64,000 nucleotides of DNA, taken from Allocoleopsis franciscana PCC 7113 (lineage in GTDB: Bacteria; Cyanobacteriota; Cyanobacteriia; Cyanobacteriales; Coleofasciculaceae). Under the pieces are notes generated by a model that was given only the letters and a program-made list of their open reading frames with translations, was not told the origin of the DNA and searched no databases. Below, in pieces: positions 12,229 through 21,632 of this stretch (within the stretch, counting starts at the first letter, position 1; each line of letters starts with the position of its first letter). The translations under genes were made by a program, and so were the position numbers. The DNA lies in contig NC_019738.1 in assembly GCF_000317515.1 (NCBI RefSeq), forward strand, positions 7,280,001 to 7,344,000, in the 5' to 3' direction.

Positions 12229-13473
12229 TTAGTGTTGAGCCACCTGGGGATGGCGTCCCAATAGACCGGTCATCAACCGCAAGGCTAGAACCTTCAACGG
12301 TTGAACCGTTCGCAGCCCCCATAAACCCAGCCGCCGAACCGCTACCACGGGCAACCAGCGATTGGAAAATAGGCGATCCAGAAAATCAGTAAATCCTAAA
12401 ATTACCAGGTTTTCTGTTTTCCGCCAGCGTTCATAGCGCTTTAATATCCGAATGTCTCCAATATCTTCACCCCGTTGATGGGCGTCGTGTAGCACTTGGG
12501 CTAAAGCCGCAGCATCTCGGATACCGAGGTTCATTCCTTGTCCGCCGACGGGATGGCAACAATGAGCCGCATCACCAATCAGTGCGAGTCGGGATTGGGT
12601 GTAGCGATCGCTCTGCATTAACTGTACCGGAAACAGGAGGCGATCGCTATCTAATTCCAGACGCCCCAAAAGCCCTCCTGTACGGTGTTCCAGTAGGGAT
12701 AGAAACTCTTTGTCATCTAGCTCTTTTAAGGCTTGTGCTTCCGCGTGGGGTGCCGTCCATACGACTTGGCAGCGATTATCGGGTAGTGGTAACACTCCCA
12801 TAGGGCCGCTAGGCCAGAAGCGTTCAAAAGCTGTGTTATTGTGTGATTTTTCGGGTTTAATTCTGACGGTGACGCAAGATTGCCAGTATTTCCAGCCGTG
12901 AGTGCCAATCCCTGCGGCTGTGCGAATGTGCGATCGCGCCCCATCTGCGGCTACAATTAAACGCGATCGCAACTGACGAATCTCTCCATCTACCTTCACT
13001 TTGATTTCTACGCCAGACGGTTGATAATCTACATCCAGCACTTCAGCCGGACACAACCAACTAACATTGGGACAGTCTGCCAAGAACTCATATAAGGATT
13101 GCAGCAGGGGACGATGTTCTCCCACGTAACCCAGATCATCCATCCCTAAATCACTGGGATGGAACTGCACGATACCAGGATGATCGGCATCCGAGAGGCG
13201 AATTTGCTGATACGTTGTAATTTGGGGCAGTACTTTATCCCAGACTCCAATTCCCTGCAAAATGCGCCCCGATAGTAGAGAAAGCGCGTAAGCTTGTCGC
13301 CTTGCTACGGCTACAGACGGAGGTTGGGCTTCGATTAACACCACCCTCAGCCCGGAGTTTTTTAAGGCACAAGCGAGTGTTGCACCAACAATTCCGCCAC
13401 CTGCGATCGCTAGGTCATAATCGAAGGTTGTATTGGGTATTGGGGGGGTTTGAGTGAGCTGTTCCAGCGCCAT
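12229..13473 (-). CDS. UbiH/COQ6-like FAD-dependent hydroxylase
   Basis: 414 residues of the aromatic-ring monooxygenase family. The N-terminal Rossmann motif is AIAGGGIVGATLACALKNSG followed by VVLIEA. The second FAD motif is LIGDAAHCCHPVGGQGMNLG, with the GD and the HP pair. The homologues hydroxylate polyprenylated quinone precursors. Cyanobacteria make plastoquinone, not ubiquinone, so the exact substrate is uncertain. The gene appears monocistronic, and an inverted-repeat element lies just upstream. Family firm, substrate inferred. Confidence 0.9.
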   Translation of the reverse strand: MALEQLTQTPPIPNTTFDYDLAIAGGGIVGATLACALKNSGLRVVLIEAQPPSVAVARRQAYALSLLSGRILQGIGVWDKVLPQITTYQQIRLSDADHPGIVQFHPSDLGMDDLGYVGEHRPLLQSLYEFLADCPNVSWLCPAEVLDVDYQPSGVEIKVKVDGEIRQLRSRLIVAADGARSHIRTAAGIGTHGWKYWQSCVTVRIKPEKSHNNTAFERFWPSGPMGVLPLPDNRCQVVWTAPHAEAQALKELDDKEFLSLLEHRTGGLLGRLELDSDRLLFPVQLMQSDRYTQSRLALIGDAAHCCHPVGGQGMNLGIRDAAALAQVLHDAHQRGEDIGDIRILKRYERWRKTENLVILGFTDFLDRLFSNRWLPVVAVRRLGLWGLRTVQPLKVLALRLMTGLLGRHPQVAQH

Positions 13474-13565: not shown

Positions 13566-13787
13566 GTAGGGGCGAACGGGCGTCATCGGTGTCAACTTAA
13601 CGTGAAACCCAAGTGTGACAACCGTTTGCCATTGATACCCACAGGCTGGAAGCCTGGGGCTACACAAACGAAGTCCGCCGACGCGGACTAGATTTGAAGC
13701 CTGCGTAGGCAGGCTTTGTTTGTGTAGCCGCGAATTCCATTCGCTCTCGTCTTAAGTTGACACCAATGAACGGGCGTTCGCCCCTAC
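13566..13787. repeat. Nested inverted-repeat element (MITE-like, 222 bp)
   Basis: The outer ends are inverted copies: GTAGGGGCGAACGGGCG (13566-13582) with GGTGTCAACTTAA (13588-13600) on the left, and TTAAGTTGACACC (13752-13764) with CGGGCGTTCGCCCCTAC (13771-13787) on the right. Inside lie a second inverted pair, GGCTACACAAAC (13658-13669) and GTTTGTGTAGCC (13718-13729), and the hairpins CAGGCTGGAAGCCTG, AGTCCGC-N4-GCGGACT and AAGCCTGC-N4-GCAGGCTT. No open frame is present. It fills the 359-base gap between the hydroxylase and TIR genes. Non-coding, probably mobile by origin. Confidence 0.7.
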
Positions 13788-13832: not shown

Positions 13833-15602
13833 CTAGCGGATGGAAAGCTGACGTTTGAGGATACTGACGACTTCACCGGGATTGGCTGTGGGTTGCAGAG
13901 GACTCCACTCACGCACTTCAGCAAATCGGAGACGGTATAAGGTTTGAATGATGTTGTTGACTCCTTTGGGAGAGCCAATGATTAGGATTTTGACAGGTTC
14001 TCGGTTTGAGGTGGGTTCTGGGGAGAGTGGAATGATGGGCGTTTCACTAGCATCGGGGCTATGATATGCACTTTGAATCAAATCTTGATATTTTTGGGAA
14101 GTTCTTACCTCCTTGCCCTTCAAGTCCCAAAAGCGAACGGTTTTTGTTTCAATTTCCATAGTAGTCACTAACTTGCCATTTGAGCTAAAACGTACCTCAA
14201 TGACACGGTCTTTATGTCCGCTTAGCCGATTTCTTTCTTTAACTCCATAAACCACTCTCTGTAGAGTTCCCATCACTTGACTACGTAAATTTGGGTCTGG
14301 CCAGACTGCTTGCCAGATTGAGGATTCAAGCTTTCTTCCTACTTTTAAAATTCCTGTTAAGGCTTCTAAATCCTGGTTCGAGGATAGCCACATTTCTGAA
14401 GTAATTATTGAAGCCTGAAGTTGAGCAATTTCTGATTTTCTGGCTGTAATTCCAGCTAAGAGCGTTAATCCTGCCATCACTACAGCAGCTACAGTCGAGC
14501 CGATAGCAATTCTCCGAGTCTGCTTGGCATTTTTTTTCTGTTCTGCTAGTCTTGCTTCCGCTTCCTTAGCCCGTTCCTCCTGCAAACGCAGCATTTCAGC
14601 TTGTCGGCGTTTTTCGGCTTCCTCTGCTGCTTCAATAGCGTTTTGACTTGCCACAATAATTTCCTCCTGCAACACAGTCGCGGCTGGTTGTTTCTTTTGT
14701 TGCTCCGTTTCCTGCAACCAGTTTTGAGCGATCGCAAATTCACTACCCCGCAACAGCAAATCAGCACTTTTCCCCTTAGAGTCCCACTCAATCGCCCTCT
14801 GCAACCATTTCGTATGATTGTGAACGTGTTCCCGGTCAGTATCGAGCGTTCTCACCAACTGGTTAAAATTAGCATTGAAATCCCGCTCATTCTGATTAAA
14901 ATCAATCCACTGCATCTTCGCTAATTCCGGATGCAAATCTGCCGAATTTACATCCCGATGCAGCACTGTCACAAACCGCTTATTCAACGAAGCTGCATAC
15001 TCCACCTCATCCGCACAGTAAGTCGAATTTACTGAGCGCGGAGAGAGAATAAATAAAAAGTTATCACAGGCTTTAATTCCGCGATAAATCTCCTGCTGAA
15101 AATCACTCCCCGATGCAATACTTTCTTGATCAAACCAAGTCGTTTTACCCTGAATCTGTAGGCTATCGTTGAGTTTTCTAGCAAAATCCGCGTCAGCACG
15201 GGAATAGGAAACAAACACATCCAGCGAACTTGCAGGCGGTTGCCGCAAACTTTCAGCAATAAATTCTTCCTGTAACGGTATGGGTGGATGCTGTGTCCTT
15301 CGCTTCGCCACCTTCAACCAAGTTTCAGCACTCCGCAGGTTATACCCTCGCAGCAGAATACTCGGATTTTCGTGCTGCTGCTTCCACTTCAGCGCTTTCG
15401 TCAGTAAAACTTTATGCTCGTTATAGTAAGCCTCATCCTGATGCAAAATCCTCAACAGTTGGCTTTCATCAAGTAAGTAATCGTCTTCTTTTACATTGTC
15501 GGTGAGGTCAATATACTGCAAATCCCGCAACCCATTCGGTATCGGTATCGTCAGCGACATCAACTCCTCTGCCATCTCGAAGTTTGCAGTAACACTTTGC
15601 AC
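13833..15602 (-). CDS. Truncated TIR-TM-WD40 paralogue with captured yebC tail
   Basis: 589 residues from a GTG start (15602); an in-frame TAG lies a few codons upstream, so translation must begin at this GTG or at the ATG of MAEELM. Residues 1-18 repeat the C-terminus of the nearby YebC. After a join at IPIPNGLRDLQY the protein follows the neighbouring large TIR protein: helical linker (about 50-118), one TIR domain (about 126-250, candidate catalytic E199 in YCADEVE), a second linker, a charged coiled coil (about 320-362), one membrane helix (about 365-387) and a single leftover WD40 repeat (about 458-500). A C-terminal segment (about 537-589) with REWSPLQP is not in the large protein. TIR1, TIR2 and 13 WD40 repeats are missing. 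It may be a reduced but expressed TIR protein or a decaying copy. Confidence 0.8.
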   Translation of the reverse strand: MQSVTANFEMAEELMSLTIPIPNGLRDLQYIDLTDNVKEDDYLLDESQLLRILHQDEAYYNEHKVLLTKALKWKQQHENPSILLRGYNLRSAETWLKVAKRRTQHPPIPLQEEFIAESLRQPPASSLDVFVSYSRADADFARKLNDSLQIQGKTTWFDQESIASGSDFQQEIYRGIKACDNFLFILSPRSVNSTYCADEVEYAASLNKRFVTVLHRDVNSADLHPELAKMQWIDFNQNERDFNANFNQLVRTLDTDREHVHNHTKWLQRAIEWDSKGKSADLLLRGSEFAIAQNWLQETEQQKKQPAATVLQEEIIVASQNAIEAAEEAEKRRQAEMLRLQEERAKEAEARLAEQKKNAKQTRRIAIGSTVAAVVMAGLTLLAGITARKSEIAQLQASIITSEMWLSSNQDLEALTGILKVGRKLESSIWQAVWPDPNLRSQVMGTLQRVVYGVKERNRLSGHKDRVIEVRFSSNGKLVTTMEIETKTVRFWDLKGKEVRTSQKYQDLIQSAYHSPDASETPIIPLSPEPTSNREPVKILIIGSPKGVNNIIQTLYRLRFAEVREWSPLQPTANPGEVVSILKRQLSIR

Positions 15603-15604
15603 AT
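15547..15604. repeat. 58-bp direct repeat, copy of yebC 3' end
   Basis: Identical at 57 of 58 positions to 20869-20926 (the only difference is A for C), in the same orientation. At 20869-20926 it is the authentic end of yebC; here it forms the 5' end of the truncated TIR gene, in the yebC reading frame. The two copies bracket the large TIR gene and its small neighbour. Confidence 0.95.
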
Positions 15605-15656
15605 AAAACAGACGCTAAGCCCCTACAAGGACGTATCTCTCACTCTCGCTTCTCTC

Positions 15657-16238
15657 TTAACGGTTCAGAAATGCTAGGGTGTGTCCCCTACTTGCCTTAG
15701 TAGAGACTCTATTCACGACAGTTTTTCCTTTAGTCTTACGAGTCTTATATGCCAAAACAGAAGACGATGGGGATGTATTGGAGGGAATTTTAGTGGCTGC
15801 GACTTGAAATGGAAAGGATTGGGATAAAGAAAACTCATTCACTGCTTCATCAAGCGATTCATTAATCAGTTGATTTAAGGTATTACCCGGAAATCTCTGG
15901 GTGATTTGTTTATAGGTAAGTTTGTCATCCAACCTATTGCCGTCCTTAGCATCACCCTTATCTCGAAGAGCATTCATTACGACACCAAAAAGTTCTGCGG
16001 TGTAGTAATCTTTATCTACATCAACGCCCCCATCGATCAACTCGACCACAAAGAGGCAATAGACTTGCCGCTCACTGTATCTATTTAGGTTTCGCTTTCT
16101 GGGGTAATTCTTGACTTCTTGGTAGCAATTCTCAAAAGAAGGAAACTCCTGCGAGTGGACGGGATAGCTACTCAGTGTAAGTACCAACCCTAGCAACAAG
16201 GCAGCAACAAATTGGGTAATTTTTCTGAATGGCATCAT
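15657..16238 (-). CDS. Small secreted protein in the TIR operon
   Basis: About 193 residues. An AAAGGAG ribosome binding site lies just before tandem ATG codons (16238 and 16235), which argues against the further-upstream start that would overlap the TIR gene by 20 bases. The N-terminus is a signal peptide (MMPFRKITQFVAALLLGLVL, cleavage probably after VHS). The mature protein has two Cys near its start (ENCYQEV, RQVYCLF), an alpha-helical middle and a basic Ser/Thr/Lys-rich tail. I recognise no family. It begins 7 bases after the stop of the 1390-residue TIR protein on the same strand, so co-transcription is likely. Confidence 0.75.
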   Translation of the reverse strand: MMPFRKITQFVAALLLGLVLTLSSYPVHSQEFPSFENCYQEVKNYPRKRNLNRYSERQVYCLFVVELIDGGVDVDKDYYTAELFGVVMNALRDKGDAKDGNRLDDKLTYKQITQRFPGNTLNQLINESLDEAVNEFSLSQSFPFQVAATKIPSNTSPSSSVLAYKTRKTKGKTVVNRVSTKASRGHTLAFLNR

Positions 16239-16245
16239 TACTCCT

Positions 16246-19200
16246 TTAGTGATCAATTCCATCACATAGAACGCGATCGCTCTTGTCTAAGGTTGGATTG
16301 TGCTGTAAGTAATTGCTTACCCAAGCACAACTTTTTGTCAGTAGTTGATCCAATGACAAGCCCCCAGCCAACTGATTGCCAACCTTACTAGACCTCAAAT
16401 TCCAGATGATGATAGTTTGATCGTCACTGGCAGAGGCGACGGTTGTACCCTCTGGGCTAAAGCTGATGTCATTGACCCAATTAGTATGTCCATCCAGTAT
16501 CTGAAGGGGTTCACCCGATGCAGTCCAGACTCTGAGTGTGTTATCTTCACCCGCAGAGACGAGGAGTTTTCCATCTCGGCTAAAACTCAGACTGTTAACC
16601 GAAGCGGTGTGACCTCTGGCAATCTTCAGTAATTGTCCTGTCCGGGTCCAAAAGCGGATTGTGCGATCGCCACCAGTTGAGACAATAGTTTGACCATCCG
16701 GGCTGAAAATCACGTTCCTCACTATGTTCTGATGCCCTTGCAGGGTATGGAGTATTTGCCCTGTAAGGCTCCAGAGTTTAACGGTTTGATCTGCACTTGC
16801 TGAGGCAAGGGTTTGTCCATCGGGGCTGAAGCTGAGATTAGTGATTGCCCCTTTGTGTCCCTCAAAGGTACGTAATAATTGCCCTTGCCGATTCCAGAGT
16901 TTAACAGTGTTATCTTCACTCGCTGAGGCGATGGTTTGTCCATCGGGGCTAAAACGCACCGCAGTAATCGGTTTCTCGTGCTCGTCTAAGGTATTGATTG
17001 GCTGTCCCGACAAATCCCACAACTTAATGGTGTTATCTCCGCTAGCGGAAGCAAGGGTTTTTCCATCGGGGCTAAACTGCACACTACCAATGGGCTCAGT
17101 ATGTGCCGGAAAGCCACGAATGAACTCACCCTTGGAGTCGTAAAGATTGATCTTCCCATCATTGCCAGCAGAGGCAAGCAACTTCCCATCTGGGCTGTAG
17201 TGGACGCTGTAAACCGAATCAGTATGATTTGAGAACTGGTGCAGTATAGAACTCGTTGAGTCCCATAACCGGACTGTCCCATCACTACTGGCAGAGGCAA
17301 TGGTCTGACCATCAGGGCTATAGGTGGCTTCATTCACCCAATCCTGATGTCCTCGAATAGTCCGGATTTCTTGACCGGCAAGATTCCATAGTTTAATCGT
17401 CTTATCGAAACTAGAGGTGAGGATAGTCTGACCGTCGGGACTAAAATTAGCGCCAATCACACCCTCGGAATGGACAAATTGCTGGAGTTCTTCCCCTGTA
17501 ATGCTCCATAACCGTGCACTGTGGTCTTCGCTGGCAGAAATAATGGTTTGTCCATCGGGGCTAAAATTAACCTCCCGGACAACAATCTGGTGTCCTGTGA
17601 ATGTTTGTAGTAATTTTCCGTTCCCATCCCAGAGACGGACTGTGTTATTAGTGTTATCTTTATCTGAACCTCCAGATGCAATGCGTTGCCCATCCGGGCT
17701 AAAGGCAACCGTGTTCACCCTGCCAGTATGCCCCTGCCAAGTCTTGATCTGTTTTCCCTCCTGATTCCAGAGGCGGATGGTGCCATCTTCACCCGCAGAA
17801 GCAAGCGTCTGGCCATCTGGGCTAAAACTGACACTCGTCACCATCCCCTCATGCCCTTCCAGGGTATGCAGAGGTTGTCCCTTCAGGTTCCAGAGCTTAA
17901 TTGTCCCATCAGCGCTAGCAGAAGCAATTGACTGACCATCTGGGCTGAAGCGGATACTGCTGATCTCACGTTCATGCCTCTTAATGCTGAACAGTAATCG
18001 TCCCGATCGCTCCCATAGTTTGATCGTGCCATCCCCTCCGCCGGAGACAATGGTTTTCCCATCTGGGCTAAAACTGAGGCTGAGTACTGCTCCGTCGTGT
18101 CCGACAAAGCGATGGATTTCCTTAATCCGGTAAAACGCTTTTTGCCATACATCCTTTACTCGTTGCTGGATTTTGCGTTTATCCTGAGCCTCTAGGGTTT
18201 GAAGTTGTCGTCCTGTCCGGATACTTTCAATCAGGGCATCAAAATCCTGATAGTTATTCAGCCGTGATTCTATGGAATAGGTAAGAGCGTTGATCAGCTT
18301 TGCTTGAGCTGCTTGAGCCTTTCTCGTCGCATTGACAGCCACCACACTAAAGCCCACAGCCGCCATCAATGCCGTAGTGACAGCGACAAGAAAGTACTTT
18401 TGTCGTTTGGCACTTTTTTTCTGTAGAGCCAGTCGTGCTTCAGCTTCCTTTGTGCGTTCCTCCTGTAAACGCAGCATTTCAGATTGGCGGCGTGTTTCTT
18501 CTTTCTCTGCTGCAACAATTGCGTTTTTACTAGCCTCAATAAACTCCTTCTGCAACACAGTCGCAACAGGCTTTTTCTGTTGTTGTTCCGTTTCCTGTAA
18601 CCAGTTCTGTGCAATCAAAAATTCACTGCCCCGCAACAGCAAATCAGTGCTTTTATCCTTCTGTTTCCACTCCAGCGATCGCTGTAACCATTTCGTATGA
18701 CTGTAGACGTGTACCCGATCTGTATCCAGCGTTCTCACCAACTGATTGAAATTGGCATTAAAATCCCGCTCATTGTGATTAAAATCAATCCACTGCACCT
18801 TCGCTAACTCCGGATGCAAGTCGCAGGAATTGATCTCCTGATGCAGCACCGTTACAAAGCGTTTATTCAACCCCGCTGCATACTCCACTTCATCCGCACA
18901 GTAAGGGGAATTTACAGAACGCGGTGAGAGAATAAACAAAAAGTTGTTACAGGCTTTAATCCCCCGATAAATCTCTTGCTGGAAGTCACTCCCTGAGGCA
19001 ATACTTTCCTGGTCAAACCAAGTCGTCTTACCCTGAATCTGTAAGCTATCATTCAGCTTTCGAGCAAAGTCCGAGTCCGCACGGGAATAGGAAACAAACA
19101 CATCCAGTGACTCTAATGGCAGTTGCCGCAGACTTTCCTCAATAAATTCTTCCTGTAGTAACGTCGGTGGTTGCTGTGTCCTTTTCTTTGCTACCTTCAA

Positions 19201-20418
19201 CCAAGTTTCAGCACTCCGCAAGTTATACCCTCGCAGCAGAATGCTAGGATTTTCGTGCTGCCGCTTCCATTTCAGCGCTTTAGCCAGCAGAATTTTATGC
19301 TCGTTGTAGTAAGCCGCATCCTGATGAAAAATCTTCAACAGTTGGCTTTCATCAAGCAGGTAATCATCTTCCTGCACATTGTCCGTGAGGTCGATATACT
19401 GCAAAGAACGCAATGCACTAGGTACCTGATTGAGGTCAGTCTCCCGCACCAATATCGGTATAATCCGCTTGGAGAGCGACAATGCCAAATCCAATTCTTG
19501 CTGACAATAGGTAGAGTTGACCGATTCAGGCGAAAGCAAAAAGACCAAATTATCCGCTTGCTCAATTCCTCGCTTAATCGCCTCCTCAAACGCTTCCCCC
19601 GTTTGAATATCCGTCTTATTCGTCCAAACGGTAATGCTTTCTCGTCTCAAGCTATTGCGAATCTTCTCCATCGTCGCCCTATCCTCATCGGCGTATGAGA
19701 GAAACACCTGAGTCATCAAGTTATGGGCATTTTTGATACTTTCGGTGATGTATTCACAATGCAAATTGGTAGGAGTACAAGGAGGTTGCTCGTCTCTAAA
19801 GCGTATCTTGAGCCAAGCTTCTGCTTGTTGTCGTTCTTCTCCAATTAATAGATAGCTGGTTTGTTTTTGATTGCGCTCCCACTCTAAGGCTTTGGCTAAA
19901 AATTGGGTATGTGCCTCGACATAATCCCGATGTCTACTCAACAGGCTCATCAAGCCTGTAAACGAAGTCTCAAAATCATCGACTCCCTCTCGAAAATACA
20001 CCCAGTTAATCTTGCCGATCGCAGGGTGCATATTGGGAAAACTCGAATGTAACCCTTTCTGTCTATACGCTTCCCAATCCTCAACTGTTCCTGTCGGAAA
20101 TCTCTGCTGCCAAGTTTCCTGTGTAATTTGCTCAACGTGCAAAAGCGGAATAATTCGCTTATTTCGCTTCAGCGCCAGCTCAATTTCTTTACCACAATAG
20201 GGCGAATTAATGGAATGGGGTGCAATGAGAAATAGGAAGTTATGCGCCTTCTCAATGCCGTCATCAATTTGGTTTTGAAAATCTACCCCAAGCGGAATAT
20301 CATTTTGATCAAACCAGACGTTTAAACCTTGTTCCAGTAAGTGAGCATGAAGTTTTGTAGCAAATGCTTTACTATCTGCTCTCCCATAGGAGATGAAGGC
20401 ATCAAATAAATTTCCCAT
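16246..20418 (-). CDS. Triple-TIR, membrane-anchored, 14-repeat WD40 protein
   Basis: 1390 residues. Three TIR domains lie at about 5-160, 235-345 and 438-560, each followed by a related helical linker of about 65 residues (motif H..L..AL.W...LL.G...A..WL....EFI..S). Each TIR keeps the Cys-x2-Glu of the NADase-type active-site helix: E78 (YCGKEIE), E308 (YCQQELD) and E510 (YCADEVE). A charged coiled coil (about 635-672) leads to one membrane helix (about 675-697). From about 768 there are 14 WD40 repeats (SFSPDGQTLASAS...IKLW), enough for two seven-blade propellers. Bacterial TIR proteins often cleave NAD or make cyclic ADP-ribose signals, many in phage defence; WD40 propellers bind partners. 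The role here is inferred. It heads a unit with the small secreted protein. Confidence 0.93.
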   Translation of the reverse strand: MGNLFDAFISYGRADSKAFATKLHAHLLEQGLNVWFDQNDIPLGVDFQNQIDDGIEKAHNFLFLIAPHSINSPYCGKEIELALKRNKRIIPLLHVEQITQETWQQRFPTGTVEDWEAYRQKGLHSSFPNMHPAIGKINWVYFREGVDDFETSFTGLMSLLSRHRDYVEAHTQFLAKALEWERNQKQTSYLLIGEERQQAEAWLKIRFRDEQPPCTPTNLHCEYITESIKNAHNLMTQVFLSYADEDRATMEKIRNSLRRESITVWTNKTDIQTGEAFEEAIKRGIEQADNLVFLLSPESVNSTYCQQELDLALSLSKRIIPILVRETDLNQVPSALRSLQYIDLTDNVQEDDYLLDESQLLKIFHQDAAYYNEHKILLAKALKWKRQHENPSILLRGYNLRSAETWLKVAKKRTQQPPTLLQEEFIEESLRQLPLESLDVFVSYSRADSDFARKLNDSLQIQGKTTWFDQESIASGSDFQQEIYRGIKACNNFLFILSPRSVNSPYCADEVEYAAGLNKRFVTVLHQEINSCDLHPELAKVQWIDFNHNERDFNANFNQLVRTLDTDRVHVYSHTKWLQRSLEWKQKDKSTDLLLRGSEFLIAQNWLQETEQQQKKPVATVLQKEFIEASKNAIVAAEKEETRRQSEMLRLQEERTKEAEARLALQKKSAKRQKYFLVAVTTALMAAVGFSVVAVNATRKAQAAQAKLINALTYSIESRLNNYQDFDALIESIRTGRQLQTLEAQDKRKIQQRVKDVWQKAFYRIKEIHRFVGHDGAVLSLSFSPDGKTIVSGGGDGTIKLWERSGRLLFSIKRHEREISSIRFSPDGQSIASASADGTIKLWNLKGQPLHTLEGHEGMVTSVSFSPDGQTLASAGEDGTIRLWNQEGKQIKTWQGHTGRVNTVAFSPDGQRIASGGSDKDNTNNTVRLWDGNGKLLQTFTGHQIVVREVNFSPDGQTIISASEDHSARLWSITGEELQQFVHSEGVIGANFSPDGQTILTSSFDKTIKLWNLAGQEIRTIRGHQDWVNEATYSPDGQTIASASSDGTVRLWDSTSSILHQFSNHTDSVYSVHYSPDGKLLASAGNDGKINLYDSKGEFIRGFPAHTEPIGSVQFSPDGKTLASASGDNTIKLWDLSGQPINTLDEHEKPITAVRFSPDGQTIASASEDNTVKLWNRQGQLLRTFEGHKGAITNLSFSPDGQTLASASADQTVKLWSLTGQILHTLQGHQNIVRNVIFSPDGQTIVSTGGDRTIRFWTRTGQLLKIARGHTASVNSLSFSRDGKLLVSAGEDNTLRVWTASGEPLQILDGHTNWVNDISFSPEGTTVASASDDQTIIIWNLRSSKVGNQLAGGLSLDQLLTKSCAWVSNYLQHNPTLDKSDRVLCDGIDH

Positions 20419-20861: not shown

Positions 20862-21632
20862 CTACACCATCGTCAGCGACATCAACTCCTCTGCCATCTC
20901 GAAGTTTGCAGTCACACTTTGCACATCGTCCAAGTCTTCCAAAGCATCCATCAACTTGAGGAGCGATCGCGCTAAATCTGGCTCAGTTACTTCTATCGTA
21001 TTGCTCGGAATCCAACGCAACTCTGCCTCACGCACCGGCAAGCCTTGTTCCTTCAACGTTTGATTCAAAGTTTCCAGATTGCTGACTTCAGTAAACACCT
21101 CCGCTACCGGGGTGTCCTCCTCTTCCTCCGATAGCTCATAAGTCTGTGCTCCCCCTTCCAAAGATGCTTCCAACAACTGCTCTTCCGCCACAGCACCCGC
21201 CAGAATAACCACGCCTTTTTGTTCAAACATCCAGGAGACACAACCCGTCTCACCGAGATTACCCCCATTTTTCGTGAAAGCCGCCCGCAAATCAGCCGCC
21301 GTGCGATTGCGATTATCGGTCAGCGCTTCAATTAAAATGGCGACACCACTAGGGCCATAACCTTCGTAGCGAATTTCTTCAAGATTGTCGTTATCGTTGC
21401 CCAGTTGTCCAGAACCCTTAGCGATCGCCCGATCAATATTGTCATTGGGGATTCCCGCCGCTTTTGCTTTATCAATCGCGGTACGCAGTCGGAAATTACC
21501 TTCCGGATCGGGGACACCCATGCGAGCCGCAACTATAATCTCCCGTGAGAGCTTAGCAAAGGTTTTCCCCTTTACGGCATCCACTCTCGCTTTCTGACGC
21601 TTAATATTCGCCCATTTACTGTGTCCTGCCAT
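20862..21632 (-). CDS. yebC: YebC/PmpR family protein
   Basis: 256 residues with the family start [19 protein letters not shown], the [26 protein letters not shown] helix region, the Gly-rich [21 protein letters not shown] segment and the SVTANFEM end. It is a widely conserved protein, described both as a DNA-binding regulator and, for some members, as a ribosome-associated factor for polyproline translation. Length and motifs are complete. Its last 58 bases are duplicated at the 5' end of the truncated TIR gene, and inverted heptamer arrays stand on each side. Confidence 0.95.
20869..20926. repeat. 58-bp direct repeat, original copy in yebC
   Basis: The partner of 15547-15604 (57 of 58 identical, same orientation). 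It encodes the last residues of YebC, so this copy is the likely source. Confidence 0.95.

Follow-up and report, generated by a model that had tools for sequence, protein, structure and literature searches.

The chimeric open reading frame (ORF) TIR-B of Allocoleopsis franciscana PCC 7113 (13833..15602, minus strand, counted from the first letter of the 64,000-nucleotide stretch of DNA that was analysed, here called the window) has been cut at both ends and mended with pieces of other genes. In place of its front (TIR1 and TIR2) stands a 58-bp copy of the yebC tail, and nearly all of its WD40 sensor is gone, the cut end being joined in frame to a downstream 84-aa gene. The best explanation, which we hold to be fairly probable, is that TIR-B is what remains, after rebuilding by breakage and joining, of a distinct and older member of the multi-copy triple-TIR/WD40 family, and that the yebC scrap is the scar of the arrival of the TIR-A module.

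Organization of the locus

On the minus strand, the ORF list gives the order yebC, spacer, TIR-A, a 202-aa ORF, a gap of 54 nt, TIR-B and a gene for an FAD monooxygenase (12229-13473). The yebC/PmpR-family gene is intact (256 aa; 20862..21632), as is the adjoining TIR-A (1390 aa; 16246..20418), in which Pfam recognizes three TIR domains and 14 WD40 stretches. The 202-aa ORF (15657..16265) overlaps the end of TIR-A and encodes an N-terminal hydrophobic segment. TIR-B itself comprises 589 aa from GTG 15602 or 575 aa from ATG 15560, and its parts follow each other as yebC scrap, TIR2 end, TIR3, coiled linker, transmembrane helix, one WD40 blade and small-gene tail. The genome is 100% complete in nine contigs, of which one of 7.47 Mb contains the window; an assembly error at the repeat is unlikely, given a finished-type genome, a repeat of only 58 bp and a private base in the copy. 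Between TIR-B and the FAD gene, an imperfect inverted repeat (13658-13729; GGCTACACAAAC...GTTTGTGTAGCC), absent from the corresponding spacer of the sister genome, is possibly a small palindromic mobile repeat.

The 5.3 kb of DNA between the two yebC tails holds two genes, TIR-A and the 202-aa gene, a point overlooked in the original prediction. Pfam, NCBIfam and PADLOC place the 202-aa protein in no family, and the 36 other genomes searched as relatives lack a homologue; of 291 genomes in the class, one other encodes a homologue (27% identity, E 7.8e-10). This homologue (L173:7012-7638, a locus also numbered L088, of Scytolyngbya sp. HA4215-MV1) lies directly 3' of a triple-TIR/WD40 gene whose product is 52% identical to TIR-A over 1389 aa. 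Since the same order recurs in a distant genome, TIR-A and the 202-aa gene likely form a unit, as judged from this one distant example. The 202-aa protein, which carries a YSExQxxCLF motif and follows triple-TIR/WD40 genes in two distant cyanobacteria, is a candidate for an undescribed TIR-WD40 partner.

The yebC-derived front of TIR-B

As had been noticed from the letters, positions 15547..15604 repeat positions 20869..20926 of the native yebC in the same orientation, with 57 of 58 bases identical and one base private to the copy (both on the minus strand). The 58-bp yebC-tail DNA matches at only these two places genome-wide (E about 1e-21). The copy also keeps the yebC frame, since both copies encode the same 18 residues, and it runs in frame into TIR-B. 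At join J1 (15604..15605), unique DNA downstream of the 202-aa gene (...GTCTGTTTT) meets the yebC tail (ATGTGCAAAG) with no obvious homology, and at join J2 (15546..15547), the yebC tail (...CTGACGAT) meets the last turn of TIR2 (ACCGATACCGAATGGG).

That the 5' end of TIR-B is a captured yebC tail is borne out by its relatives. Of the 193 stretches encoding relatives of TIR-B that about 85,000 species genomes yielded, the best 80 were kept, and nearly all of these align only from residue 19-21 onward, the point at which IPNGLRDLQYIDLTDN (IPNGLRDLQY) begins, with homology mostly ending near residue 518. The first 18 residues of TIR-B are therefore foreign. Five relatives do match from residues 2-3, yet they align the end of their own TIR2 there and not a yebC-like peptide, so that the yebC segment is not an old part of TIR genes. 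Alignment with full-length relatives likewise upholds the proposed loss of TIR1 and TIR2, save for the last turn of TIR2.

The age of the scrap can be approached through a base that it shares with its own yebC: both read GAG, whereas the sister genome (G001) and the nearest outgroups (G005 and G012) read GAT, a polarisation based on few genomes, of which G002 and G013 carry GAG in a different codon context. The scrap was therefore probably copied after the species split, and it is probably young, its copying postdating the separation from the sister species.

The sister genome and the age of the TIR genes

In the sister genome, whose YebC is 98% identical, the locus consists of yebC, one TIR gene (1357 aa), a free-standing 84-aa ORF and the FAD gene, and the expectation that a relative would carry a single TIR copy thus proved right. 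The sister TIR gene is a mosaic, first A-like and then B-like (L035:8958-11200; maximum chi-square, permutation P 0.002), from which it follows that this TIR family recombines and that gene conversion may blur ages. Its dS to TIR-A and TIR-B (0.74 and 0.76, respectively) is some three times as high as in the genes on either side, and the sister TIR locus looks like a recombination hot spot. A small XRE/HTH-like ORF, judged as such from its translation, lies on the opposite strand between the sister TIR gene and the 84-aa ORF (L035:13040-13420); it is not seen at the corresponding place in the window.

The two genes of the window are themselves old relative to each other. In the TIR3 domain and linker, DNA identity is 83.8% between TIR-A and TIR-B, 84.0% between TIR-A and the sister gene, 83.8% between TIR-B and the sister gene and 84.4% between TIR-B and its G005 counterpart; dS between TIR-A and TIR-B is 0.69 over the shared region, as against a species divergence of 0.24 in yebC and 0.20 in the FAD gene. 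TIR-B is thus no closer to TIR-A than to the copies of other genomes, as a recent tandem duplicate would be, and branch support among the A, B and sister copies in the FastTree tree is weak. Nor does any of the 928 stretches of 58 bases in the alignment of TIR-A with TIR-B have fewer than three differences (mean 9.2), while the yebC scrap has one. Judged by these distances, TIR-A and TIR-B must have split long before the yebC scrap was copied. At the protein level, TIR-B is about 60-65% identical to the nearest triple-TIR/WD40 members over residues 21-518, and by this measure and by the tree its TIR3 and linker share descent with that family.

These distances bear directly on the original prediction, in which a recent tandem duplication of a unit made of the yebC end and the TIR gene was followed, in one copy, by deletion from the yebC tail to TIR3. 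The order and orientation of the parts fit such a history, and the sister has one copy. However, joint copying of the yebC tail and the TIR gene is not supported, because both should then be equally similar, whereas there is a single difference among the 58 bases of the tail, as against a dS of 0.69 between the TIR genes; moreover, TIR-B is equally close to TIR-A and to other genomes' copies. The proposal, which we regard as very unlikely, survives only if the “copies” are divergent alleles brought together.

The direct repeat could also be read as a pair of attachment sites left by site-specific integration at the 3' end of yebC, considering that it lies at the 3' end of a protein gene and flanks a 5.3-kb unit. 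Yet the ORFs of the interval include no integrase, and the distal copy runs straight into TIR coding sequence instead of into normal yebC downstream DNA, which is found beside yebC and is also present in the sister, so that we consider this reading extremely improbable. The suggestion that recombination across the repeat might cleanly remove the 5.3-kb TIR unit is wrong: such a deletion is predicted to replace the last YebC residues and the stop codon by TIR-B, giving an 825-aa YebC-TIR fusion frame and not restoring yebC.

The 3' fusion

A second in-frame fusion, missed in the original prediction, lies at the other end of TIR-B. Its last 74 residues (13833..14058, minus strand) are the orthologue of the free-standing 84-aa ORF of the sister (L035:13468-13719), minus its start, so that the 3' part of this small gene now forms the C-terminus of TIR-B. 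Identity between the two is 92%, or 96.5% in another comparison covering the last 57 residues. At the join J3 (14051..14058, minus strand) stand eight bases, CCCCGATG, common to both partners: in WD40 genes they are part of the codons for SPDG (AGC CCC GAT GGx), and in the small gene of those for VPDA (GTC CCC GAT GCC). The exact CCCCGATG occurs in four blades of TIR-A and in 15 of the 71 SPDG motifs of ten relatives. An in-frame deletion at this microhomology would explain the fusion.

The 84-aa ORF family (KILLIGSPKGVNNIIQTLYRLRFAEVREWSPLQPTxNPGEVVSIL) has no significant match in Pfam or NCBIfam. It is dispersed: the present genome has seven copies and a relative (G015) as many as 58, and the tail of TIR-B thus draws attention to an unnamed family.

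Origin of TIR-B

The favoured history would run as follows. At first, yebC and the small gene would have been separated by an older TIR-WD40 gene. The TIR-A module would then have entered, or re-entered, at yebC, with homology in yebC as the anchor for recombination at one of its ends and an illegitimate join at the other. The resident TIR gene would thereby have been pushed downstream and have lost its front, and the 58 bp of yebC at the join would be what this step left behind; the scrap is thus probably the scar of the event by which TIR-A became the neighbour of yebC. In a separate step, deletion at CCCCGATG would have fused the WD40 part of the older gene to the small gene. What this one genome of the species shows, and what would fit displacement, is a truncated neighbour together with two illegitimate joins, J1 and J2; both the locus before insertion and the order of the three joins are reconstructed from this strain. 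Displacement by a new module has been proposed for other conflict loci, namely T6SS effector modules of Vibrio cholerae and Rhs loci (PMC5361080), and integration through one-sided homology is documented in competent bacteria and in E. coli (PMC3240628). The roles may also be reversed, with TIR-A as the resident and TIR-B as the newcomer, because the upstream spacer and TIR1-3 of TIR-A resemble the syntenic gene of the sister.

A simple 58-bp filler fits almost as well as the insertion step. Here TIR-A and TIR-B would already have stood in tandem, and a break in the front of TIR-B would have been patched with 58 bp from yebC, 5.3 kb away, creating J1 and J2 in a single step; this one event accounts for the short length, for the identity of 98.3% and for the absence of spacer DNA. 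It leaves unexplained that the source of the patch is exactly the gene on the far side of the TIR-A module, for which proximity could nevertheless be the reason, and we regard such a templated repair as possible but not probable.

The predicted product

The 1.77-kb ORF of TIR-B is uninterrupted. The in-frame starts near its front (GTG 15602, ATG 15575, TTG 15563 and ATG 15560) all fall inside the yebC scrap, in keeping with the earlier idea that the join supplied a candidate start codon, and a Shine-Dalgarno-like AGAGGAG stands 3 nt upstream of ATG 15560. The TIR3 domain is complete (14853..15218, minus strand; Pfam TIR_2, profile 1-122 of 122, E 1.1e-30), with an SxxC..E motif that, by alignment, is common to Cat1, and hydropathy predicts a transmembrane helix at residues 365-383 (14454..14510, minus strand). 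TIR-B departs from the triple-TIR/WD40 plan in having one complete TIR plus the last turn of another and, according to both Pfam and the structure model, about one WD40 blade as against the 14 WD40 stretches of TIR-A, too little for a propeller. The structure model, built on a shallow alignment, has a mean pLDDT of 70.5 and a pTM of 0.47; TIR3 is mostly modelled at pLDDT 81-94, apart from a low loop near residues 161-164, while pLDDT falls below 50 in residues 1-34, among them those from yebC, and in most of the small-gene tail (residues 521-589).

If transcribed together with the preceding TIR-A and 202-aa genes, and translated from a start in the scrap, TIR-B would be a sensorless, membrane-anchored TIR protein, and its conserved SxxC..E motif makes it a candidate NADase. 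Fusions that yielded an expressed and useful protein of this kind, for instance a partner or a brake of TIR-A, would make TIR-B a selected new gene, a question of function compatible with either origin. Several observations point in this direction: both joins are in frame, for which the chance is roughly 1 in 9, the long ORF has no stop, TIR3 is complete with its conserved Glu, TIR-B starts only 54 nt behind the 202-aa gene, and the AGAGGAG precedes an ATG. However, its spacing is short, the dN/dS of 0.13 mostly reflects the time before the fusion, the two acquired ends are modelled poorly and, because the fusion is young, an open frame is weak evidence of function. We therefore consider selection for a new function unlikely; that the two fusions made a working gene, with frame and ribosome-binding-like site from the yebC scrap and its end from the dispersed 84-aa family, acting with or against TIR-A, seems to us quite doubtful. 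More likely, TIR-B is a decaying, still open relic, although a pure relic needs neither two in-frame fusions nor an open frame of 1.77 kb. No regulatory fold was found around the TIR-B joins, where the DNA is less stable than shuffles (z 1.41), and a promoter and terminator scan gave results near chance. A real TIR-B protein would be marked by the peptides SLTIPIPNGLR and SAYHSPDASETPIIP.

Comparison with known systems

Among defence systems, Thoeris ThsB, TIR-SAVED and Cat1 effectors have in common with the TIR genes described here a TIR domain with the catalytic-type Glu region, albeit through weak matches. Partner genes of these three systems are not seen at the locus, PADLOC matches the TIR part only, and the ThcB4 (NCBIfam) score of 38.6 bits lies far below the curated cut-off of 220 for that named TIR defence. 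A literature search for a link between YebC and TIR returned one irrelevant match. TIR-A is of the same broad kind as the TIR and highly repetitive WD40 conflict proteins of multicellular cyanobacteria (PMC9218822, PMC8195603), but it differs from them in having three TIRs in a row fused to WD40, with no STAND ATPase among its best Pfam matches, and TIR-B differs in being without a sensor. The short, nearby-copied patch between two breakpoints resembles the templated insertions, or filler DNA, of repair joins, for which the literature found is mostly eukaryotic.

The closest parallel lies in the T6SS effector displacement arrays of Vibrio cholerae (PMC5361080), where, as here, a conserved anchor is followed by a new conflict module and, further downstream, by the shortened form of an older gene, and where one homologous and one illegitimate join are proposed. 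In contrast to these arrays, the present case, from a cyanobacterium, involves a TIR-WD40 gene beside yebC; what the remnant retains is its middle and not an immunity gene, and it carries a scrap of the anchor gene as well as a second fusion at its 3' end. The locus thus offers a recent example, at base level, of the shuffling of conflict genes, with a housekeeping anchor, a module beside it and an older gene that, though trimmed on both sides, still forms one open frame. It also suggests that repair scars can lend a start codon and a C-terminus from neighbour genes, building a new ORF stepwise, and it points, in the 202-aa protein, to a candidate, so far undescribed, TIR-WD40 partner.
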